Source: Euzebyales bacterium | GTDB lineage: Bacteria > Actinomycetota > Nitriliruptoria > Euzebyales > JAHELV01 | Length of the DNA stretch: 56,895 bases | NCBI GenBank assembly: GCA_035461305.1 | Contig: DATHVN010000040.1 | Coordinates: 1-56,895 of the forward strand | Direction: 5' to 3' | Part shown: positions 17,449 through 52,799 of the stretch, in pieces | How the letters are laid out: each line of letters begins with the position of its first letter | How positions within the stretch are numbered: the stretch's first letter is position 1 | Notes under the pieces: model-generated | Database searches by the model: none | What the model was told of the DNA's origin: nothing | What the model saw: the letters and a program-made list of their open reading frames with translations, nothing else | Translations under genes and position numbers: made by a program

Positions 17449-17571
17449 TCAGGCTGCGCGTGCGTACTCGCTCGCAGCGGGCTGGTCTGTCGCCGGCTGC
17501 GGTTCCTGACTCGCGGCCGCCCGTGCCTTCGCGTTCCTGATGAGCTGTGCGAGATAGGCCGGACTGATCAT
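17449..17571 (-). CDS. Small MISPA-type protein (copy 1)
   Basis: A 40-aa frame begins MISPAYLAQLIRNAKARAAA and ends EYARAA, with GGAGG 8 bases before its ATG. The second half is rich in Gln, Pro and Ala. It matches the 45-aa product at 40092-40229 at the N-terminus (MISPAxLAxL, then AR) and at the C-terminal RAA. No known family. It is divergent from a decayed regulator pseudogene and converges with the methyltransferase gene. Confidence 0.6.
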   Translation of the reverse strand: MISPAYLAQLIRNAKARAAASQEPQPATDQPAASEYARAA

Positions 17572-17752
17572 GGCGTGCCTCCGTGTGATCGCCCGCCGGG
17601 GTCGGCTCCCGTCGGTCGTCGGGTCGTGCCGGCACCCTACGAACGATGGACCTTCCGACGGTGAGCGTCGGATGAGGACTTCATGAGGATCGTTGACAGG
17701 GTCGTGGCCGCCTCCGGTACGCTGATCCATGCCTGCCTGAGGGGTGAGGCCG

Positions 17753-19131
17753 ATGTCGACGGTCACGGGTCATCCTCAGCGTGGAGGTCTGTTCGTGACG
17801 CCACGACGAGATCGCACGCCTCCGTGGGCTCGTGGAGGGCTCAGCCTGTCGGGTGCTGTTCGTCCATGGGATGAGCGGGACGGGCAAGTCGATGCTGCTC
17901 CGGCAGACCGCCCGGTGGACCGACCCACCGGCGTCGCGGTTCGTGCTGCTCGACTGCCAGGAGATCGAGCCGACCGAGGCCGGCTTCCGCAGTGCGCTAC
18001 GGGGCGCCATCGGTGGCACCCCGGACGAGGACGGCTTCGCGTGGCTCGGGACGATCGCCGACCGAGTCGTCATTTGCCTCGATCAGTATGAGGTGCTACG
18101 CCTGCTCGACACCTGGCTGCGGCACGAGGTCGTCCCAGCGCTGCCAGCGAACGTGCGACTGCTCATCGCCGGCCGCGAGGAGCCACACACGGCGTGGAAG
18201 CGGCTGCCCGCCGGCACGTTCGACACCCGACGACTCGTCCGCTGTCGACCGCCGAGAGCACGGAGCTGCTGACGCTGCTCGGCGTCGACGACGTCGCCCG
18301 CGACACGATCGTCCGGTTCGCCGGGGGACATCCGCTCACCCTGGTGCTCGGCGCGCTCGCGGCACGTGAGCACCCCCACCCGCGCGCTCCGCGACATCAC
18401 GCTCGACCGGCTGCTCGACGAGTTCACGTTGGTCTACCTCGACGAGCTGGACCCGCACACGCGTGAGCTGCTCGAGGCGGCGGCGGTCGTCCGTCGCGTC
18501 ACGCGACCGCTGCTGGGCGCCCTGCTTCCGGACACCGACGCGTGGAAGGGCCTCGAGACGCTCGCGGCGCTGCCGTTCGTCGACCGGACCGGCGAGGGCC
18601 TGGCGATCCACGAGTCACTGCGGCAGGCGGTCGCCAACCACCTCCGGGCGGCCGAGCCGACCCGTCATCGGTTGCTGCGGCGGCACGCTGGACGTACCTG
18701 CGGACCGAGCTTCCACGGTGGCGCGATCCCGGACGACGCGGTCGAGATCGACGGGATCGCCTACCACGGCCTGTACCTGGACTTCGGCCCCTCGTCCGTC
18801 GACGGATGGCTCACCCATCGCCGCGGAGGAGCTGGGGCTGCCAGAGGACGACATTCTGGACGTCCGCCGACGGCAGCTGCTGCTCGACGGCGGTCGCATG
18901 GACCTTACGCCCCTCGAGTTCGAGGTCGTCCACTACCTGCGGGAACGCGAGGGCACACCGGTCTCTCGTCAGGAGATGCTGGGAGACATCTGGGGCTACG
19001 ACACCATCATCGGTTCGAACGTCGTCGACGCCGTCGTCGTCGGGCTCCGCCGCAAGCTCGACCGGCACGCCGACTTGATCGAGACGGTGCGCGGCGTCGG
19101 CTACCGCTTCCGCCGAGACGCGCGGGACTGA
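17753..19131 (+). pseudogene. Decayed ATPase/winged-helix regulator
   Basis: Pieces of one protein occur in several frames. Residues from ATG 17753 (STVTGHPQRGGLFVTPRR) shift near 17805 into DEIARLRGLVEG, then Walker A GMSGTGKS and Walker B VVICLDQYE. Near 18240 the frame changes to RPLSTAESTELLTLL. It changes near 18370 to LRDITLDRLLDEF, and again near 18820 to ELGLPEDDILDV and a complete OmpR-type DNA-binding wing (LTPLEFEVVHYL to GVGYRFRRD). At least four frameshifts and probably an internal deletion are present, so no functional full-length protein is expected. Confidence 0.8.
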
Positions 19132-19534: not shown

Positions 19535-21814
19535 CTACCCCGTGGCGGCGCGGTCGCGTGCGGCGGCGACGGCGGTCTGCCCGAGGCAGATGCCCCCGTC
19601 GTTGGGCGGCACGCGGACATGGGTCAGCACGTGAAAGCCCGCGCCCTCGAGCGCGGCGACCGTCCGCTCCACCAGCAGCACGTTCTGGAACACCCCACCG
19701 GACAGCGCGACCATCGTCAGGCCCGTGGCGTCGCGCACCCGCGCGCACGCGTCGACGGCCGCGGTGACCATCGCGCCGTGGAAGCGCGCGGCGATCACGG
19801 GGACCGGCGTCCCGGCGCACAGGTCGTCGACGACCGACCGGATGAGGTCCGACCCTGCGATCGCGAACGGCTCGGTGTCGGTCAGGACGGCCCGGTAGCC
19901 GCCACGCTCCACCGGATCCGCGACCTGCTCCAGCTCGATCGCGGCCTCGCCCTCGTAGCTGACGGCGTCGCGCACGCCGACCAGCGCGGCGACGGCATCG
20001 AACAGCCGGCCCGCGCTCGACGTCGGTGGCGAGTTGACGTTCGCCTCGGCCACGGCCAGCACCTGCGCCCACCGGTCCGCGTTGCGCTCGACGACCTCCA
20101 GCCCGTCCGGCATGTCGTCGCCGTAGGCGCGGCGCAGCCAGCTCGCCGCCATGCGCCAGGGCTCGCGGATAGCGGCCGCACCGCCCACCAGTGGCACCGT
20201 CTCGACGTGGCCGACCCGCTCGAACGAGACCAGGTCGGCGACGAGGACCTCACCACCCCAGATCGTGCCGTCGACACCGAACCCGGTGCCGTCGAACGCC
20301 ACGCCGATCACCGGATCGGATGTGCCATTGTCGGCCATGCACGACGCGATGTGCGCGTGGTGGTGCTGCACGCCGACCAGGTCGACACCGTCGAGGTCGA
20401 CCGCGTACTTCGTCGACAGGTACTCGGGGTGCAGGTCGTACGCGACGATGACCGGCTCGATGTCGAACAGCCGGCGCAGGTGGGCGATCGCACCGGTGAA
20501 CGACCGGTACGTCTCGTAGTTCTCCAGGTCGCCGATGTGGTGCGACAGGTAGGCGCGGCGGCCCTTGGCGAGGCACACCGTGCTCTTGAGCTCCGCACCC
20601 ACCGCGAGCACGGGCCGCGGCACGGGCCGGCCGAGCAGCACCGGCTGGGGCGCGTACCCACGCGAGCGGCGGACCAGCAGCGGGCGGTCCCCTACCATCC
20701 GCACGACCGAGTCGTCGACGCGGATGTGGATGGGTCGGTCGTGGGCCAGGAACGCATCGGCGATCCCAGCGAGCCGCGCCAGCGCGTCCCCGTCGTCGAA
20801 GGCGATGGGCTCGTCGGACACGTTGCCGCTCGTCAGGACGAACGGGCGACCAACGGCATCGGCAAGCAGGTGGTGCAGCGGAGTGTAGGGCAGCATCACG
20901 CCGAGGAAGCGGTTGCCGGGCGCCACCGACGGCGCGATCACCGGCACGTCAGGGCCCCCTGCATCGTCCCGGCGTCGCAGGAGCACGATCGGCGCGGTCG
21001 GACCCGTCAGCCGGGCCCGCTCGTGCGGGCCGACCTCACACAGCGCCCGCGCGACCTCGAGATCGGCGACCATCACCGCCAGCGGTCGCTCCTCGCGGTG
21101 CTTGCGGGCCCGCAGCCGGGCGACCGCGGCGTCGTCGGTCGCGTCGACGGCGAGGTGATACCCGCCCAGGCCCTTGACGGCGACGATCCGCCCGTCGCAC
21201 AGCAGCTCCGCCACACGCGCGATCGGCTCGCCGTCGAGCGCCGTACCGGCGGCGCCGACGAACGACAGCCGCGGTCCGCACGACGGGCAGCACACGGGCT
21301 GCGCATGGAACCGGCGATCGGTCGGGTCGGCGTACTCGCGGGCGCAGGCGTCGCACAGCGGGAAGCCGGCCATGGTCGTCGTCCGGCGATCGTAGGGGAC
21401 GTCGCGCACGATCGTGTAGCGCGGTCCGCAGTTGGTGCAGTTGACGAACGGGTACCGGTAGCGCCGGTCGCGGGGATCCCACAGCTCCGTGAGGCAGTCG
21501 GCGCACGTCGCGACGTCGGGCGAGACCGGCACGTGGCGGGCGCCCTGCGCCTCGCTGACGACGATCTCGAACGTCGGGTCCCCACGGACATCGATCGGCG
21601 TCGCGGTGACATCCTCGATGACCGCCATCGCCGGAGCCTCGTCCAGCAGTCGGACGAGGAACGCGTCGACCGCGACCGGGTCCCCCTCGACCTCGGCGAG
21701 CACGCCCGTGGCGTCGTTGCCGACGAACCCGCGCAGCCCGAGCTCGACCGCCAGCCCGTGGACGTAGGGACGGAACCCGACACCCTGCACGACACCGGTG
21801 ATCCGGATGCTCAT
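19535..21814 (-). CDS. hypF: Hydrogenase maturation carbamoyltransferase HypF
   Basis: The 759-aa protein is a complete HypF. The acylphosphatase domain spans residues 1-92 (GVVQGVGFRPYVHG). Two zinc-finger pairs have Cys at 104, 107, 126, 129 and at 154, 157, 176, 179. A YrdC-like domain follows (PLAVM, TSGNVSDEPI). The Kae1-like carbamoyltransferase domain holds the HHHAH metal site near residue 480. HypF activates carbamoyl phosphate and transfers it to HypE for the active-site CN ligands. It is divergent from the hhyS operon and shares its promoter region. Length is normal. Confidence 0.97.
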   Translation of the reverse strand: MSIRITGVVQGVGFRPYVHGLAVELGLRGFVGNDATGVLAEVEGDPVAVDAFLVRLLDEAPAMAVIEDVTATPIDVRGDPTFEIVVSEAQGARHVPVSPDVATCADCLTELWDPRDRRYRYPFVNCTNCGPRYTIVRDVPYDRRTTTMAGFPLCDACAREYADPTDRRFHAQPVCCPSCGPRLSFVGAAGTALDGEPIARVAELLCDGRIVAVKGLGGYHLAVDATDDAAVARLRARKHREERPLAVMVADLEVARALCEVGPHERARLTGPTAPIVLLRRRDDAGGPDVPVIAPSVAPGNRFLGVMLPYTPLHHLLADAVGRPFVLTSGNVSDEPIAFDDGDALARLAGIADAFLAHDRPIHIRVDDSVVRMVGDRPLLVRRSRGYAPQPVLLGRPVPRPVLAVGAELKSTVCLAKGRRAYLSHHIGDLENYETYRSFTGAIAHLRRLFDIEPVIVAYDLHPEYLSTKYAVDLDGVDLVGVQHHHAHIASCMADNGTSDPVIGVAFDGTGFGVDGTIWGGEVLVADLVSFERVGHVETVPLVGGAAAIREPWRMAASWLRRAYGDDMPDGLEVVERNADRWAQVLAVAEANVNSPPTSSAGRLFDAVAALVGVRDAVSYEGEAAIELEQVADPVERGGYRAVLTDTEPFAIAGSDLIRSVVDDLCAGTPVPVIAARFHGAMVTAAVDACARVRDATGLTMVALSGGVFQNVLLVERTVAALEGAGFHVLTHVRVPPNDGGICLGQTAVAAARDRAATG

Positions 21815-22029
21815 CCGCGTCGGCGCCGCCTCGCGCGATCCGTCGATGAAGGCTCACCTCACCTAACTGTGTAATGCCGTGATGGTCCGCGACGGCCAGA
21901 TGGAAATTGGTTCTCGACAGCGTGCCCCATGTCGTCTTATGGTGCGTAGTCCGTTCCCAGTTGTCCCGGATGGCAACGGTGTCGAGCGTCATCGCGGGTC
22001 ACCCGTCACTGGGACGGAGGAGGGTCGAG
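21815..22029. promoter_or_regulatory. Divergent promoter region hypF / hhyS
   Basis: This 215-bp region lies between two divergent starts and is locally less GC-rich than its surroundings (TAACTGTGTAATGCC, GGAAATTGG). It must hold both promoters. A GGAGG lies about 10 bases before the hhyS start. I see no convincing palindrome, so regulator sites cannot be assigned. Confidence 0.5.
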
Positions 22030-23112
22030 ATGAGCGCCGCCTCCACCATGCCCACCATGCGCGACAAGCCGGACACGATGGACGCGAAGGTCCACATCCT
22101 CTGGATCAACGCGGGCCTGTCCTGCGACGGCGACTCCGTCGCACTGACCTCCGCGACGCAGCCGAGCATCGAGGACATCGTGCTCGGCGTGCTGCCGGGC
22201 CTGCCTGAAGTCGCGGTCCACTGGCCGCTGATCGACTACGAGAACGGACCCGTCGGCGTCCGTGACGACTTCATCCACTGGTTCCACGAGGCGTACAACG
22301 ACGAGCTCGACGCGCCGTTCGTCCTGGTGGTCGAGGGCTCGATCCCCAACGAGAAGATCAAATCCGAAGGCTACTGGGCCGCGTTCGGCAACGACCCGGA
22401 GACCGGCGACCCCATCCCCACGTCGGACTGGGTCGAGCGGCTGGCACCCAAGGCGCTGGCGGTCATCGCCGCCGGGACCTGCGCCACCTACGGCGGCATC
22501 CACGCCATGGAGGGCAACCCGACCGGCGCAATGGGTGTGGCCGACCTGCTCGGCTGGGACTTCCGCACACCGGCAGGCATCCCGATCGTCAACGTGCCGG
22601 GCTGCCCGACGCACCCCGACAATCTCTCCGAGACGATCCTCTACCTGCTGTACCAGGCGACCGGGCAGGCGCCGATGATCCCACTCGACGAGAAGCTGCG
22701 CCCGACGTGGCTGTTCGGCGCGACCGTCCACGAGGGCTGCCACCGCGCCGGCTACTACGAACAGGGCGAGTTCGCCGAGGACTACAACAGCCAGAAGTGC
22801 CTCGTCAAGATCGGCTGCTGGGGTCCGGTCGTGAAGTGCAACGTCCCCAAGCGCGGCTGGATCAACGGCATCGGTGGCTGCCCCAACGTCGGTGGCATCT
22901 GCATCGCGTGCACCATGCCGGGCTTCCCCGACAAGTTCATGCCGTTCATGGACGAGCCGCCCGGCGCGACCGTGTCGAGCAGGGCCGTCAAGGCCTACGG
23001 CGGGATGATCCGCCGCCTGCGCTCGATCACGGCGAAGACCGCCGACAAGGAACCGTCGTGGCGCCGCAAGGGCACGGCGTTGACGACGGGCTACACGCCG
23101 CCCTGGCGCTGA
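22030..23112 (+). CDS. hhyS: Group 1h [NiFe]-hydrogenase small subunit
   Basis: The 360-aa iron-sulfur subunit matches the actinobacterial high-affinity (group 1h, formerly group 5) type. It has NAGLSCDGDS at residues 28-36 (the CxGD pattern noted for this group), GTCATYGGI, PGCPTHPDN, then the cluster ligand region HEGCHRAGYYE, IGCWGPVVKCNVP and CPNVGGICIACTMPGFPDKF. No twin-arginine signal is present, as is usual for this group. It passes electrons from the [NiFe] site to the respiratory chain. The ATG at 22030 follows GGAGG and matches the family N-terminus. Confidence 0.96.
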   Translation: MSAASTMPTMRDKPDTMDAKVHILWINAGLSCDGDSVALTSATQPSIEDIVLGVLPGLPEVAVHWPLIDYENGPVGVRDDFIHWFHEAYNDELDAPFVLVVEGSIPNEKIKSEGYWAAFGNDPETGDPIPTSDWVERLAPKALAVIAAGTCATYGGIHAMEGNPTGAMGVADLLGWDFRTPAGIPIVNVPGCPTHPDNLSETILYLLYQATGQAPMIPLDEKLRPTWLFGATVHEGCHRAGYYEQGEFAEDYNSQKCLVKIGCWGPVVKCNVPKRGWINGIGGCPNVGGICIACTMPGFPDKFMPFMDEPPGATVSSRAVKAYGGMIRRLRSITAKTADKEPSWRRKGTALTTGYTPPWR

Positions 23113-23155
23113 CCACCGACCGCACCTGACGCGTCCTCAGGACTAGGAGCCATCC

Positions 23156-24955
23156 ATGGCGCACACAGCGGACGTCACCTCCCCGAGCATGACCAGCGTC
23201 AGGGAGGAGGGGCTCGTCGAGATGGCGTGGGACCCCATCACCCGCATCGTCGGGAGCCTGGGGATCTACACCAAGATGGACTTCAAGAACAAGGTCGTGA
23301 AGGAGTGCTACTCGAGCTCCCACGTCTTCCGTGGCTACAGCGTGTTCATGAAGGGCAAGGACCCGCGCGACGCGCACTTCATAACCAGCCGCATCTGCGG
23401 CATCTGCGGTGACAACCACGCGGCCTGCTCGGTGTACGCGCAGAACATGGCCTACGGCGTGCGGCCACCCCCCATGGGCGAGTGGATCATGAACCTCGGC
23501 GAGGCCGCCGAGTACATGTTCGACCACGCCATCTTCCAGACCAACCTCGTCGACGTGGACTACTGCGAGCGGATGGTCCGCGAGACCAACCCCAGCGTGT
23601 GGGAGCGCGCCAAGCAGACCGAGGCGCCGCACGCGGCCCTGCACGGCTACCGCACGATCGCCGACATCATGACGGCGCTCAACCCGCTGGAGGGCGAGCT
23701 GTACCTCGAGGCGCTGCAGGTGTCGCGGTACACCCGAGAGATGTTCGTGCTGATGGAGGGACGCCACGTCCACCCGTCGACGCTGTACCCGGGCGGCGTC
23801 GGCACCCAGGCGACGGTGCAGCTGTTCACGGACTACATGGTGCGCCTGATGCGCTACGTCGAGTTCATGAAGAAGAACGTACCGCTGCACGACGACCTGT
23901 TCGACTTCTTCTACGAGGCGATCCCCGGGTACGAGGAGGTCGGCAACCGGCGGATCATCATCGGCAACTGGGGCTCGTTCCAGGACCCCGAACACTGCGA
24001 CTTCCGCTACGAGACCATGGAGCACTGGGGCCGCAAGATGTTCGTGACGCCGGGCATCGTGGTCGACGGCAAGCTGCTGACGACCAACCTGGTCGACATC
24101 AACCTGGGCATCCGCATCCTGCTCGGCTCGTCCTACTACGACGACTGGGAGGACGGCGAGACCTTCGTCACCCACGACCCGCTGGGCAACCCGGTCGACC
24201 GCCGGCACCCGTGGAACCAGCACACCATCCCCAAGCCCCGCAAGCGCGACTTCACCGACCAGTACACGTGGGTCATGTCGCCGCGCTGGTACGACGGCGA
24301 GAACCACCTCGTGATGGACACCGGCGGCGGACCACTCCCGCGGCTGTGGGTGACCGCGCTGGCGAACCTGGTCGACATCGACTACGTCCAGGCCACCGGG
24401 TCCAGCGTGAAGATCAACTTCCCCAAGACGGCGACGATGCCGGCGCAGACGCTCGAGTGGCACATCCCCGAGCGGTCCAACACCTTGGAGCGCAACCGGG
24501 CGCGCAGCTACTTCCAGGCCTATGCCGCCGGCTGTGCACTGCACTTCGTTCAGCAGGCGCTCGACGGGGTGCGTGCGGGTGAGACCGACACGTTCACGCC
24601 CTTCGAGGTCCCCGACGAGGCAATCGGCTGCGGGTTCCACGAGGCGGTTCGCGGCGTGCTCAGCCACCACGTGGTCATCCGCGACGGCAAGATCGCCAAC
24701 TACCACCCGTACCCACCGACGCCGTGGAACGCCAGCCCGCGCGACGTGTTCGGCCAGCCCGGACCGTACGAGGACGCGGTGCAGGGCCAGCCGATCCTCG
24801 AGGAGAACGAGCCCGACAACTTCAAGGGCATCGACGTCATGCGGACGGTCCGCAGCTTCGACCCGTGCCTGCCGTGCGGCGTCCACCAGTACCTGGGGAA
24901 GGGCAAGATGCTCAAGGAGCTGCACTCCCCCGCCGGGGTCCCGGACCAGCGGTGA
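23156..24955 (+). CDS. hhyL: Group 1h [NiFe]-hydrogenase large subunit
   Basis: The 599-aa catalytic subunit has the N-terminal nickel motif RICGICGDNH (Cys81, Cys84) and the C-terminal motif DPCLPCGVH (Cys571, Cys574, His577), followed by a 22-residue tail expected to be removed by the maturation protease. The motif wording CGDNHA and CGVHxYLGKGK fits group 1h. These enzymes oxidise H2 at atmospheric concentrations to support persistence. Its stop overlaps the next start (GTGA), so the NifU-like gene is coupled to it. Confidence 0.97.
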   Translation: MAHTADVTSPSMTSVREEGLVEMAWDPITRIVGSLGIYTKMDFKNKVVKECYSSSHVFRGYSVFMKGKDPRDAHFITSRICGICGDNHAACSVYAQNMAYGVRPPPMGEWIMNLGEAAEYMFDHAIFQTNLVDVDYCERMVRETNPSVWERAKQTEAPHAALHGYRTIADIMTALNPLEGELYLEALQVSRYTREMFVLMEGRHVHPSTLYPGGVGTQATVQLFTDYMVRLMRYVEFMKKNVPLHDDLFDFFYEAIPGYEEVGNRRIIIGNWGSFQDPEHCDFRYETMEHWGRKMFVTPGIVVDGKLLTTNLVDINLGIRILLGSSYYDDWEDGETFVTHDPLGNPVDRRHPWNQHTIPKPRKRDFTDQYTWVMSPRWYDGENHLVMDTGGGPLPRLWVTALANLVDIDYVQATGSSVKINFPKTATMPAQTLEWHIPERSNTLERNRARSYFQAYAAGCALHFVQQALDGVRAGETDTFTPFEVPDEAIGCGFHEAVRGVLSHHVVIRDGKIANYHPYPPTPWNASPRDVFGQPGPYEDAVQGQPILEENEPDNFKGIDVMRTVRSFDPCLPCGVHQYLGKGKMLKELHSPAGVPDQR

Positions 24956-35795: not shown

Positions 35796-38700
35796 TCAGC
35801 CGTCGTCGTCGAGCGCAGCGAGGACGTCGAGCAACCACACGATCGCCGCATCGTCATCCATCGCCGCACCGCGGGCGCGGGCGGCCGCGAGCCGCTCCGC
35901 ACCCAGCCGGCCACCGAGCTCCTCGGCGGCCTCGGCGAGCCGCCTGGCGTCCGCGCCGTACGGCTCCGCCGCGGTCGTCCGGGTCGACAGCACACCGAGC
36001 AGCACGGCGGCGTCCTCGTCGGCGCGCAGGCGCAGCAGCATGCCGACGATGCTGCGTGTCGTCACCCACTGCTGGGTCCAGTTACCGGCGCGGTGCCAGC
36101 GGTCGACGGTCTCGCGGAACAGCGGCACGGCCCGTGCCGCATCGCCGTGTCGCGCCAGCAGCGATGCCGTCGTGACGAGAGCGACGCCGGTCAGGAAACG
36201 GTCGTCGAGCGCGCGGCTGCGCGCCAGGGCGTCCTCCGCCAGCGACAGCGCCCGCTGCGGATCCGTCTCGACCAGCGTCTCGGCCAGGCCGTATGCGGCC
36301 CACGCGATGGTCGTCGGCGCGTTGGCCCGCTGGCCCGCCTCGAGCAACCGCTCCGCCTCTGCGACGGCCGCGTCGGTCTCGCCGCGGTAGGCATGCGCCA
36401 GCGCCCGGTTGGCGCGGACCCACACGCCGAAGAGGTGCTGCGGGCCGTACGCCGGCATCCGTCCGAGGTCGTCGGCCAACCGCAGCACGTCGTCGAGGCG
36501 GCCCTCGTACAGCGCGACGTCCGACAGCGTGTAGCGCGCGACGTAGCCGGCCGGATCGTCTGGACCGTCGGCGTGCGCGAGGCCGCGCTCGGCGAGCTTC
36601 AAGGCGCGGGGGAGGTCGCCGCGGAACCGCGCGCTCATCGCGGCGGCGCCGTACGCCCCCGGCAGCCAGGGCGAGTCGATGCCGACCTGCTCCGCCACGT
36701 CGATCACCCGCTCCGCCCAGGCGAACGCCTCGCCCAGTGCGCGCTGCTCAACGTAGACCGGCAGCGCCGACACCAGCCGCAGTGCCAGCTCGAGGTCGTG
36801 CTCGACGCTCCACGCGTGCGCGGCCCGCAGCTCGTCGATCTCCCGGTCGATGATGACAGCGGACACCGGATCGTCGGCGTCGAACAGTCGGGCGGTGACG
36901 TGCTCGGCGAGGTCGACGTGGTAGGCGGCGTGCGCGTGCCGGGCCGCCCGTGTCTCCGCGCGGGCCTCGAGACGTTCCCTGCCGTAGGCACGCAGGGTGT
37001 CGAGCAGCCCGTAGCGCGCGACGTCGGCGTCGGTGTGTGCGACGACCATCGAAGCGTCCACCAGGTCGGCGACCACCTCGGCGACGTCATGGACGTCGAC
37101 GTCGGGAACCGCCGCGCCAGGGCCACCGACGTCGCGGGCCTCGACGTCGGCGTCAGTGCCAAGCGCGACGACGTGCTCGGCGGCGTCGAGCGTGAACGTG
37201 CCGGCGAACACCGACAGCCGGTCGAAGACCACGCGCGCCCGCTCGTCGAGCAGGCCGTAGGACCAGTCGACGACGGCCCGCAGGGTCCGGTGCCGCGCCG
37301 CGCCGCCGCGACGGCCGCCGCGCAGGACACGGAACCGCCACGACAACCGTGACGCCAGGTCTGCGGGTGTCATCGACCGCATGCGCGTCGCCGCGAGCTC
37401 CAGCGCGAGCGGCACGCCGTCGAGCCGCCGGCAGATGTCGGTCACCACTGCGAGGTTGTCCGGCGTCAGGGCGAAGTGCCCCCCGGCGGCGGCGCGGCGG
37501 GCGAACAGCTCCACGGCCGGGCTCATCACGGGTGTGGCACTGTCGCCGCCGGCGGGCGGCACCGCCAGCGGTGGCACCTCGACGACCCGTTCCGTCGTGA
37601 CGCCGAGCCGCTCCCGGCTGGTCACGAGCATCGCGATCCCCGGACACGACCGGACGAGCGCGCCGACCAGCGCGACCACGCCATCGATCACGTGCTCGGC
37701 GTTGTCGAGCACCAGCAGCCCGCGACGCGGGCGCAGCACCTCAACGATGCCCTCCACGGTCGTCATCCCCGCCCGGGGCTGGGCGTCGAGAGCCGTCATG
37801 ACGACCTCGGCCACCGCGTCGTCGGCGTCGATCGACGCCAGCTCGCACCACCAGGGACCGTCGCGGTGGCCAGGGCCGACGAGCATCGTCGAACGCACCG
37901 CCACGCTGGTCTTGCCGACGCCGCCCGGGCCGATCAGCGTCACGGGGCCGCCGGCTCCCAGCGCGGCGCAGACCCGCGCGACGAGATCGTCGCGCCCCAC
38001 GAGGTCCGGCGCGGGAGGCAGCCCCACGGGCTGCACGGGCGGCGTTGGACCCTGCGAGGTCGCGTCTTCGTCCTCGTTCCGCCCGGTCGCGACGGGCAGG
38101 TCCGCCGCGACCGACGGTCCACCGAGCTGGGGGTCGCCGCGCAGGATCTGCTGTTCCAGGGAGCGCAGCGCGGCCGAGGGCTCGAGCCCCAGCTCCCTGT
38201 CCAGCAGGTCCCGGTAGTCGCGGTAGGCGGCGAGCGCGTCGGCCTGCCGTCCGGCGCGGTACAGCGCCACCATGAGCAGGGCCTGCGGGCGCTCTCGCAG
38301 TGGCTGCGCGTCGTTCAGCACCTCGAGCCGCGCGACGGCGTCGTCGGTCCGTCCCAGCGCCAGCGCTGCCTCGATCCGCTCCTCGGTCGCCGTGACCCGC
38401 AGCTCACCGAGCCGCGCCGCCTCGGCTCTGGCGAACTCCTCGTCGCGGAACTCCGCGTACGCGTCCCCGCGCCACAGGCCGAGCGCCTCGTCGTACAGGT
38501 CGGCGGCCGCCGCGGGGTCACCGGAGGCCGCGCGGGCACGGTCCACGAGGTCGGCGAACCGCGTGGCGTCGAGCATGTCACGGGCCAGCGTCACCGTGTA
38601 GCCGGGCGCCCGTGTCTCCACCGTCACCGGCCGGGCGTCGTCGGCACGCAGCCGGCCGCGCAGGCGCGAGACCAGGTTGTGCAGCGCGCCGGTGGCGTTC

Positions 38701-38870
38701 TTCGGGGGATCGTCGCCCCACACCACGTCGGCGAGCCGGTCGGCCGACACGACCGAGCCGGCGTCGATCACGAGCGCCGCTAGCAGCCGGCGCAGCTTGG
38801 GTGACGGCAGCGGCACCGGTCCGCCGTCGTCGGTGACGACCTCGAGCGTCCCGAGCACCCGGACGTGCAT
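35796..38870 (-). CDS. BTAD/AfsR-type multidomain transcriptional regulator
   Basis: The 1024-aa protein has an OmpR-like DNA-binding domain (residues 1-90, VRVLGTLEVV, KLRRLLAALVIDAGSVVSADRLADVVWG). A BTAD helical domain covers ~95-245, ending in LDRELGLEPSAALRSLEQQIL. An NB-ARC ATPase follows (Walker A GPGGVGKTSVAVR near 317, GLLVLDNAEHV as Walker B, DGVPLALELAATRMR). A long TPR region ends the protein. Such SARP-like regulators control secondary metabolism or stress genes, but no biosynthetic cluster is adjacent. Length is typical. Confidence 0.93.
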   Translation of the reverse strand: MHVRVLGTLEVVTDDGGPVPLPSPKLRRLLAALVIDAGSVVSADRLADVVWGDDPPKNATGALHNLVSRLRGRLRADDARPVTVETRAPGYTVTLARDMLDATRFADLVDRARAASGDPAAAADLYDEALGLWRGDAYAEFRDEEFARAEAARLGELRVTATEERIEAALALGRTDDAVARLEVLNDAQPLRERPQALLMVALYRAGRQADALAAYRDYRDLLDRELGLEPSAALRSLEQQILRGDPQLGGPSVAADLPVATGRNEDEDATSQGPTPPVQPVGLPPAPDLVGRDDLVARVCAALGAGGPVTLIGPGGVGKTSVAVRSTMLVGPGHRDGPWWCELASIDADDAVAEVVMTALDAQPRAGMTTVEGIVEVLRPRRGLLVLDNAEHVIDGVVALVGALVRSCPGIAMLVTSRERLGVTTERVVEVPPLAVPPAGGDSATPVMSPAVELFARRAAAGGHFALTPDNLAVVTDICRRLDGVPLALELAATRMRSMTPADLASRLSWRFRVLRGGRRGGAARHRTLRAVVDWSYGLLDERARVVFDRLSVFAGTFTLDAAEHVVALGTDADVEARDVGGPGAAVPDVDVHDVAEVVADLVDASMVVAHTDADVARYGLLDTLRAYGRERLEARAETRAARHAHAAYHVDLAEHVTARLFDADDPVSAVIIDREIDELRAAHAWSVEHDLELALRLVSALPVYVEQRALGEAFAWAERVIDVAEQVGIDSPWLPGAYGAAAMSARFRGDLPRALKLAERGLAHADGPDDPAGYVARYTLSDVALYEGRLDDVLRLADDLGRMPAYGPQHLFGVWVRANRALAHAYRGETDAAVAEAERLLEAGQRANAPTTIAWAAYGLAETLVETDPQRALSLAEDALARSRALDDRFLTGVALVTTASLLARHGDAARAVPLFRETVDRWHRAGNWTQQWVTTRSIVGMLLRLRADEDAAVLLGVLSTRTTAAEPYGADARRLAEAAEELGGRLGAERLAAARARGAAMDDDAAIVWLLDVLAALDDDG

Positions 38871-39082: not shown

Positions 39083-39499
39083 TCGATATACCAGCTGGAT
39101 GAGCAGCGCACCCAGGCAGACGAGCTCGCCGATCAGCTGCAGGCCCGGGATCACGAGATCACCGAACTGCGTGCCCAGGCCGCGACACTCGAGCAGGCCC
39201 GCGCCGCGGCCGACGACGACCGCGCGCGACTGACAACCCAGCTCGACCAGGCCCGCGCCGAAGCCGACGACGACCGGACCCTCGTGGAGGGGGTCGGCCC
39301 GAAGATCGCCGGTCTGCTGGCCAACGCCGGGATCGACTCGTGGCGGGCGCTGGCCGAGGCCGACGTCGAGCGCCTGTAGCTGGTGCTCGCCGGGGCGGGC
39401 CCGCGTTACCGGATCCACGACCCGTCGAGCTGGCCGACGCAGGGCAGGCTGCTGGTCGAGGGACGCTGGCCGGACTTCAAGGACGTGGTCACCGGATGA
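39083..39499 (+). pseudogene. Coiled-coil/helix-hairpin-helix protein broken by an amber codon
   Basis: The frame after a TGA at 39080 encodes a coiled coil (YQLDEQRTQADELADQLQAR, QARAAADDD repeats). A helix-hairpin-helix then follows (VEGVGPKIAGLLANAGIDSWRALAEADVERL). TAG at 39377-39379 interrupts it, and the frame continues LVLAGAGPRYRIHDPSSWPTQGRLL to TGA at 39497. CAG to TAG would explain the stop. No start codon or membrane N-terminus is found, so the gene is also 5'-truncated. Confidence 0.7.
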
Positions 39500-39514
39500 G
39501 CCGGGGGCCGCTGC

Positions 39515-39865
39515 TCAGCGCAGCACGACCAACGCGAGGACGGCGACGACGCCGAGGAACAGCCCGGTCGACGCCATCCGGACCAGCGGGCTGGCCTTGA
39601 CGAACCTGCGCTGCAGGCGCACGCCGCGGTCGATCATCTGGCGCAGCGCCCACTGGGCCCAGCGGAAGCGCACCGCCAACATGGCGAGCCCGATCGGGAC
39701 CACGATCGTCGCCGGGCCCGGCAGCACCGTCATGGCCAGTCCTGCGACGATCACGACGACCGCGACCACCACCCAGACGGCGCGCAGCGCCGGACCGCCG
39801 TCGTGGTAGTGCTGCTGCACCGCACGTACCCGCCGTTGGATGTCCTCTCGCAGCTCTTCCGTCAT
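39515..39865 (-). CDS. PGPGW-type transmembrane protein
   Basis: The 116-aa protein has a charged N-terminus, a hydrophobic helix, and the motif TVLPGPATIVVPIGLAMLA typical of the PGPGW family. A basic loop (RGVRLQRRFVK) and a second C-terminal hydrophobic helix follow. The ATG at 39865 gives the family length, and upstream in-frame starts are possible. Function unknown. Confidence 0.75.
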   Translation of the reverse strand: MTEELREDIQRRVRAVQQHYHDGGPALRAVWVVVAVVVIVAGLAMTVLPGPATIVVPIGLAMLAVRFRWAQWALRQMIDRGVRLQRRFVKASPLVRMASTGLFLGVVAVLALVVLR

Positions 39866-40091
39866 GTGGATCGACCGTGCTTCCTCGACCGTGCCACGCC
39901 GTGCCAGCGGGGACGCGTACCGGATCATCCATCCTGGCACGGCGGGTTGGTGCCCACAGGGGTTGGGCGATGTATCAGATGTAGGTCGTCCTCCTCCTCA
40001 ATGTAGGTGGTCGTCACCGATCTGCGATCACGGTGATGGCCGTACCGTCGCTCCCGTCACCACACCAGGCATTCGACAACGAGGAACCATC

Positions 40092-40229
40092 ATGATCTCT
40101 CCCGCGCAGCTCGCGAAGCTGGTCCAGGCCTACCAGGCCCGCCAGGCCGAGCAGGACTCGCAGACCGCCAACGTCACCGAGCTCGACGTCCGAGCCGGCA
40201 CGGACGCCGACGTCAGCAGGGCCGCCTGA
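40092..40229 (+). CDS. Small MISPA-type protein (copy 2)
   Basis: The 45-aa frame begins MISPAQLAKLVQAYQARQAE and ends DVSRAA, preceded by GAGGAA at normal distance. The first 20 residues look like one amphipathic helix, and the rest is acidic and Thr/Asp-rich. It matches the 40-aa product at 17449-17571 at both ends. It stands alone between a PGPGW gene and a peptidase gene. No known family. Confidence 0.6.
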   Translation: MISPAQLAKLVQAYQARQAEQDSQTANVTELDVRAGTDADVSRAA

Positions 40230-40348
40230 TCCCACAGCACATCCGATGGCACCGGCCTCACGCGCCGGTGCCATCGCCCAGTCCTGGGGGACGGCGTCGG
40301 GACCGACCGCAGCGCTAGCATCTGCGGTTCCCGTCGCCAGGAGCGCCC

Positions 40349-51289: not shown

Positions 51290-51365
51290 CGACTCCGCAA
51301 CAGCCGTGCCACTTCACGGGTGGACGGTTGGCATCACACGGTCGCAGGGGTGATCATTGGGACCC

Positions 51366-52799
51366 ATGGCTGCTCCAGGTGACGTGCTCGCCGACCGCTA
51401 TGAGCTGAACTCCCGGCTCGGTCGCGGCGGCATGGCCGAAGTGTTCCGCGCCCACGATCGTCGACTCGATCGCGAGGTCGCGGTCAAGGTGCTCGCGCCG
51501 CACCTGCTGTCGGACGCGCGCTCGATCGACCGGTTCGACCGGGAGGCCCGGGCCGCGGCATCGCTCAACCATCCCAACATCGTCAACGTCTACGACGCCA
51601 TCAACGAGGGCGACACGCACGCCATCGTGATGGAGCTCGTCGAGGGCCCGACGCTGGCCGACATCATCGAACGTGAGGGCCGCCTGTCGTTCGAAGAGGC
51701 GACGCGCACGGCGATCAACATCGCCGACGCGCTGCAGGCCGCGCACGACCGGGGGCTGGTCCACCACGACGTCAAGCCGCGCAACGTGCTGTTCGACAGC
51801 GACGGCTCGCTGAAGGTCACCGACTTCGGCATCGCGCGCGCGGCCAGCAGCGACATCACCACGGTGCAGGGCTCGCCGCCCTACCTCGCGCCCGAGCAGG
51901 CGCGTGGGGGTCAGTCCGACAGGCGCAGCGACGTGTACGCCCTGGGCTGCGTGCTGTTCGAGATGCTCGCCGGGCGTCCACCGTACGAGGGTGACAGCTC
52001 GTCGGCCGTCGTGATGGCCCACATCGATGCGCCGATCCCCGAGCTGTCCCGCTTCCGGCCCGACGTCCCCCGTGATCTCGAACGGGTCGTCACCCGTGCG
52101 CTCGCCAAGGACCCCGACGAGCGCTATGACTCAGCTGCGGCGCTGCGGGCGGACCTGACCCGCATCGAAGCCGGCCTCGCCCCGGCCGGCGCGACCATCA
52201 TCTCGTCGACGCGCGCGATGCCCCAGGAACCCACGATGGCGCTCGACGACGAGTGGCAGGACGCACCGCCGCCGGAGTACACGCGCCCCTACGACGACGA
52301 GCAACCACGACGGCGCCGCCGGGGGCTGTCCGCCCGTGCCGTGGCGATCGCGCTCGCGGCGATCCTGCTGCTGGCCGTCCTCGCAATGGCCTGGGCTGAC
52401 AACAACAACCGACAGACCGCCGCGGAGGACCCGGTGGTCACCGAAGCGCCGGCCGAGCCGGCGCCCGAGCCGGCGCCCGACACGCAGGACCAGAACAACG
52501 GTGCCAACGACAATCAGAGCCTGATCGACCGCCTGAACGAACGGGCCGACCGGCTCGAGGAGCTGCTCAGGCGGGGCCGCACCGCCGATGAGGCGACCCG
52601 GGAGCGCATCGACCAGCTCCGCCGTGAGCTCGAGGAGGCCCTGCAGAGCAACAGCGATGGATCAGGCGGCGGCGACAGCCGCCTGGACGAGCTCCAGCGG
52701 CGCATCGACGAGCTCGCCAGGGACCAGCAGGTGACCCAGGGCATCGTCGAACGGCTGCAGCAGCTGATCGAGGACCTCAACCCGTTCGGTGGTGGTTGA
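51366..52799 (+). CDS. Ser/Thr protein kinase with single membrane span
   Basis: The 477-aa Hanks-type kinase has a glycine loop GRGGMAEVF, Lys41, Glu60, a catalytic loop VHHDVKPRN (Asp135), DFG at 153-155 and APEQ at 176-179. The usual HRD arginine is His134. An acidic linker and a basic stop sequence precede a transmembrane helix at 324-344. The extracellular part (~345-477) has a Pro/Glu spacer and a predicted coiled coil rich in Arg, Glu and Leu, with no PASTA domains. The ligand is unknown. The ATG at 51366 is used. Confidence 0.93.
   Translation: MAAPGDVLADRYELNSRLGRGGMAEVFRAHDRRLDREVAVKVLAPHLLSDARSIDRFDREARAAASLNHPNIVNVYDAINEGDTHAIVMELVEGPTLADIIEREGRLSFEEATRTAINIADALQAAHDRGLVHHDVKPRNVLFDSDGSLKVTDFGIARAASSDITTVQGSPPYLAPEQARGGQSDRRSDVYALGCVLFEMLAGRPPYEGDSSSAVVMAHIDAPIPELSRFRPDVPRDLERVVTRALAKDPDERYDSAAALRADLTRIEAGLAPAGATIISSTRAMPQEPTMALDDEWQDAPPPEYTRPYDDEQPRRRRRGLSARAVAIALAAILLLAVLAMAWADNNNRQTAAEDPVVTEAPAEPAPEPAPDTQDQNNGANDNQSLIDRLNERADRLEELLRRGRTADEATRERIDQLRRELEEALQSNSDGSGGGDSRLDELQRRIDELARDQQVTQGIVERLQQLIEDLNPFGGG

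Follow-up and report, generated by a model that had tools for sequence, protein, structure and literature searches.

The window analysed here, a stretch of 56,895 nucleotides from a Euzebyales bacterium, contains two very short open reading frames whose products begin alike, and thus raises the question of whether these are genuine, related genes and what such proteins might do beside large regulators. Gene A (17449–17571 on the minus strand, stop codon included) encodes the 40-residue protein MISPAYLAQLIRNAKARAAASQEPQPATDQPAASEYARAA, and no 40-residue MISPA product is encoded on the plus strand of the same interval. Gene B (40092–40229 on the plus strand, stop codon included) encodes a protein of 45 residues. 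The two are recovered by the family HMM with E-values of 3e-15 and 7e-24 respectively, A and B each being themselves part of the model, and a scan of their own 4.24-Mb genome with the pattern MI[ST]PAxLA matches only these two genes. Each has the ribosome-binding site claimed for it in the preliminary description of this DNA, lying 6 nucleotides before the ATG (GGAGG at 17578–17582, minus strand, for A; GAGGA at 40081–40085, plus strand, for B).

Evidence for a family of small proteins

A third member, C (MISPAYLAQLIEQYQARQAERSATVASLDSRRTSDEPVVRAA, 42 residues), is present as a single copy in the congener G003, one of three further congeneric genomes that were examined. It is syntenic with B, lying between a small minus-strand open reading frame and a DUF885 gene, and shares 60% identity with B as well as its start and stop, the two differing by a 9-nucleotide in-frame indel. 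No copy of A follows the orthologous methyltransferase gene in G003. In the window this methyltransferase gene is convergent with A; its product reaches only 54.8 bits against a daptide methyltransferase cut-off of 175. The conserved part of the three proteins is N-terminal (MISPAxLAxL[IV]xxxxAR) and is followed by a variable polar tail with an RAA end. The tails have no conserved core and no cysteine, and no hydrophobic secretion signal is visible in the sequences. An AlphaFold model of B predicts a single helix, with confidence in the first 20 residues (pLDDT 86–88). The preliminary description had called this N-terminal helix amphipathic; its amphipathicity is not significant against shuffled sequences (p 0.09–0.24).

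That A is homologous to B and C is best seen from a profile built of B and C only, against which A scores 50.0 compared to 24.5 for the next best of 32,752 open reading frame starts, with a tail estimate of 6e-8 per start. The earlier claim of two related proteins is thus borne out, the profile of B and C singling out A. Pairwise blastp with filters off gives E-values of 4e-6 for A and B and 9e-9 for A and C; another protein-comparison run returned no alignment of A with B. The raw score of 43 for the first pair over 20 residues is borderline when taken alone, since the best shuffled pairs reach 41, and it is the orthologue C that makes the case for homology. A and C are identical at 14 of their first 20 residues, eight of these being encoded by different codons (including Ser AGT/TCC), and the Arg codon of the RAA end is AGG in B and CGC in A and C. 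Synonymous codon differences at residues common to A and C point to selection on the protein. The excess of third-position changes between A and C is not significant (p 0.08).

The alternative, that A is unrelated to B and C and the likeness is a chance one between short open reading frames, is very improbable. It draws on the height of the shuffled scores, on the absence of an orthologue of A and on its weaker coding signal (GC at codon positions 2 and 3 of 0.60 and 0.75, against 0.47 and 0.96 in B and 0.52 and 0.98 in C, where a high third-position and low second-position content is the signature of genes in GC-rich genomes). Against it stand the position of A far outside the distribution of starts on the B/C profile, the synonymous changes at residues common to A and its relatives, and the fact that start, ribosome-binding site, length and RAA end are all held in common.

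The pattern of substitution between B and C is less clear. Over their full length changes fall 14, 11 and 12 times at the first, second and third codon positions, without a third-position excess, and 5 codons differ synonymously compared to 17 nonsynonymously, whereas the adjoining DUF885 gene has 84, 63 and 201 changes. Either the tails are free to change, and would be hardly constrained, unlike DUF885 next door, or the data are too few. The synonymous-to-nonsynonymous comparison proposed earlier as a sign of coding selection therefore gives a mixed outcome, the expected pattern being visible in the common N-terminus between A and C and absent over the whole of B and C.

Restriction to one genus

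The MISPA proteins are a real small-protein family, found in one small genus only, undescribed in the family libraries searched and represented in the data by three sequences (A, B and C). In agreement with the earlier statement that no such family was known, neither A nor B matches any entry of Pfam or NCBIfam at E-values up to 10 or of PHROGs at E-values up to 1, and nothing was found in Rfam. No member outside the genus was recovered by a protein search of 41 relatives, by a relaxed start pattern in 66 genomes of the class, or by HMM in 396 genomes of the phylum; the best outsider in the phylum (G173, E 2.6e-5) was rejected, since it lies inside a longer open frame in which no start matches. 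A strict degenerate pattern applied to some 85,000 species genomes, a scan that would miss members with an altered start and a collection that may omit records close to the window, gave 82 stretches, none of which is a short homologue. Viral contigs, plasmids and phages yielded no member, and when small open reading frames were screened around all BTAD loci of the genus and around 17 matches to the ATPase facing A, only A, B and C were recovered. The preliminary description had named a lack of further homologues with the same start and frame in related genomes as a refutation; C answers this in part, being such a homologue, but within one genus only.

Two large regulators beside the small genes

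The regulator nearest to B is a 1024-residue SARP (35796–38870, minus strand) of AfsR architecture, assigned by profiles and PDB relatives. An N-terminal OmpR-type winged helix (Trans_reg_C, PF00486) is followed by BTAD (PF03704), an ATPase region recognised by alignment to AfsR, and a TPR part that gives a weak match to the FxSxx-TPR profile. Its solved relatives are AfsR (E 1.6e-37) and EmbR (PDB 2fez, E 3e-33). The best NCBIfam profile is that of AfsR (E 7e-58), but at 196.5 bits against an equivalog cut-off of 1430, and judged from its sequence the protein is AfsR-like and not AfsR. The distance of 1.2 kb between B and this gene is as previously described; B, however, is transcribed away from the BTAD gene, which is on the minus strand, and another minus-strand open reading frame (39489–39932) lies in between. 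A plus-strand coding stretch resembling a helix-hairpin-helix protein (39095–39500) appears to be interrupted by a TAG in this genome, and G001, G002 and G003 all contain DNA related to it.

In G003, which has C, the SARP is intact at ~59% identity. In G001 its frame is broken after the BTAD part, possibly by assembly error, and in G002 it is absent from the locus, which passes directly from the gene at 32.9 kb to 39.1 kb; none of the other BTAD-match loci fetched from G002 is more than 50% identical to it. Neither G001 nor G002 has a B-like open reading frame before DUF885, which is itself present at 77–79% identity, and thus in the four genomes compared the congeners without B are also without an intact SARP at this locus.

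Gene A faces what the preliminary description called a decayed ATPase regulator (17741–19131, plus strand), which is AAA/NACHT-like and does lie in pieces in several frames; it should be added that it ends in a C-terminal OmpR-type winged helix (Trans_reg_C). Related ATPases in other members of the class mostly occupy open frames of 600–890 residues, so that the broken state would reflect either decay or an assembly error. No orthologue is present in G003, where the best match is 32%. Paralogy of the two neighbouring regulators was considered and rejected, since the SARP does not match the ATPase region facing A, which argues against simple duplication of one module. Further along this side of the window, [NiFe] hydrogenase small and large subunit genes (21907–24955) adjoin HypF on the opposite strand (19535–21814). 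The HypF region has a different order relative to LysR and methyltransferase genes in G003, which indicates that the segment was rearranged between the species.

Sequences upstream and downstream of the small genes

Upstream of B is an octamer direct repeat with a 22-bp period (GATGTAGG-N14-AATGTAGG, 39978–40007, plus strand), which is conserved before C as GATGTAGG-N14-GATCTAGG within DNA that has otherwise diverged. Allowing at most one mismatch, this pattern occurs once in the genome of the window and once in G003, exactly before B and C, and nowhere in G001 or G002. Seven bp past the second copy, inside the invariant GTCACCGATCTGCG, lies a putative -10 element of B, CACCGA (40015–40020, plus strand). 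Between A and its divergent regulator there is a direct repeat with an 11-bp period, TCCTCAT-GAAG-TCCTCAT (17672–17689, minus strand), which has p ~0.02 taken alone and differs in sequence from that of B, and 8 bp after it is CACCGT (17658–17663, minus strand), a candidate -10 element by analogy with SARP promoters (PMC10936776). These -10 elements, and that of C, were assigned by eye. In all three genes the element is the sole CACCGW in 130 upstream bases; it starts 7–8 bp beyond the second repeat, 77–92 bases before the ATG. SARPs bind direct repeats spaced 11 or 22 bp apart, with 8 bp between the 3' copy and the -10, and in the promoter of afsS, a target of AfsR, the -10 is weak (CACTGT; PMC10936776). 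The layout before A, B and C, noticed post hoc, is therefore suggestive of SARP-type promoters.

A perfect 12-bp hairpin follows the stop codon of B (40244–40276, plus strand) and is conserved after C, with z-scores of -3.6 after B and -5.7 in G003 and no U-tract; it is likely to be a terminator or a 3' stabiliser. DUF885 follows on the strand of B, with this hairpin between the two, an arrangement in which B might serve DUF885 as a leader peptide or an attenuator. We consider this highly improbable, and rejected B as a leader for DUF885 because DUF885 occurs without B, two congeners having it without either the open reading frame or the hairpin. Furthermore, no gene follows A on the strand of A, and A and B are alike in amino-acid sequence and not in position alone.

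A possible regulatory circuit

The role of the MISPA proteins had been described beforehand as that of a signalling peptide, a small regulator or a leader. Of these the small regulator fits best; the leader is opposed by the hairpin after B, by DUF885 without B and by A without a downstream gene, and the secreted signal by the lack of a hydrophobic signal. We propose, tentatively and with rather less than even confidence, that the MISPA proteins are genus-restricted and cytosolic, and that the gene for each serves as a dedicated output of the large ATPase regulator beside it, in a circuit like that of AfsS. Taking as observed the genes, their homology and synteny, the repeats and their uniqueness, the hairpin and the co-absence in relatives, we infer regulator binding, a transcript and action on a protein partner. 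The ATPase and TPR parts of the SARP would receive a signal. Each regulator, which for B is the SARP, would then bind the repeat of 11- or 22-bp period and bring RNA polymerase to the weak -10 next to it. A short single-gene transcript, ended in the case of B by the hairpin, would give rise to the small protein, whose N-terminal helix may dock on a partner protein, so that it acts downstream as AfsS does below AfsR. It is rather doubtful that the two loci represent a recurrent two-gene module, in which an OmpR-type winged-helix ATPase regulator is paired with one MISPA target, with two regulator types in one genome and an AfsR–AfsS-like arrangement with an unrelated output.

It is also possible, and we think unlikely, that the MISPA proteins are real but independent of the regulators, the helix binding, for example, RNA polymerase, a membrane or an enzyme, and that linkage and repeats are coincidental. 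The genome encodes many large regulators (10 BTAD matches), no other BTAD locus of the genus has a MISPA gene nearby, and the repeat of A is weak. However, the repeat of 22-bp period is unique to the B/C gene in two genomes, B is absent where an intact SARP is absent, and the regulators adjoining A and B both contain an OmpR-type winged helix.

A conserved N-terminus with a variable tail resembles a leader plus core, and this, along with the TPR repeats of the AfsR-like protein and their weak FxSxx-TPR match, would suit peptides that are secreted as signals, or that are precursors of ribosomal natural products, and that the regulators would sense through their TPR part. This is quite improbable, since the neighbours tested, the larger open reading frames, included no identifiable peptide-modifying enzyme or exporter, and the proteins have no hydrophobic secretion signal, no cysteine and a polar tail without a conserved core.

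If the MISPA family alone is real, the gain is a further small protein specific to one lineage. The locus also offers a SARP that seems to have a single target, together with a clear candidate operator, and this is easy to test.

Relation to described systems

FxSxx-COOH systems are actinobacterial and link small peptides to NB-ARC/TPR proteins. The TPR part of the SARP resembles them through its weak profile match; the MISPA proteins differ in that they lack the FxSxx C-terminus, and a radical-SAM maturase was not identified nearby. In Streptomyces, AfsR is phosphorylated by Ser/Thr protein kinases, and the window that encodes the AfsR-like regulator also contains a gene for a Ser/Thr protein kinase (51357–52799), which is conserved in G003. 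EmbR, a SARP of Mycobacterium (PDB 2fez), has the winged helix-BTAD region in common with the SARP described here, but its chain is 388 residues long compared to 1024 with ATPase and TPR regions.

The closest parallel is with AfsR and afsS of Streptomyces coelicolor, in which a large SARP (winged helix, BTAD, ATPase, TPR) is likewise combined with a gene for a very small protein, and in which the afsS promoter likewise has direct repeats at 11- or 22-bp spacing near a weak -10 (PMC10936776). AfsS has 63 residues, three 12-residue repeats and sigma-like residues, whereas the MISPA proteins have 40–45 residues and are without such repeats, a comparison made with AfsS as published (PMC2267785). 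Judged from that description the MISPA proteins are not AfsS, and may be regarded as a circuit analogue that is unrelated in sequence. If the proposed circuit is correct, an unrelated protein in the position of AfsS would suggest that a large ATPase regulator with one small output is a general design.
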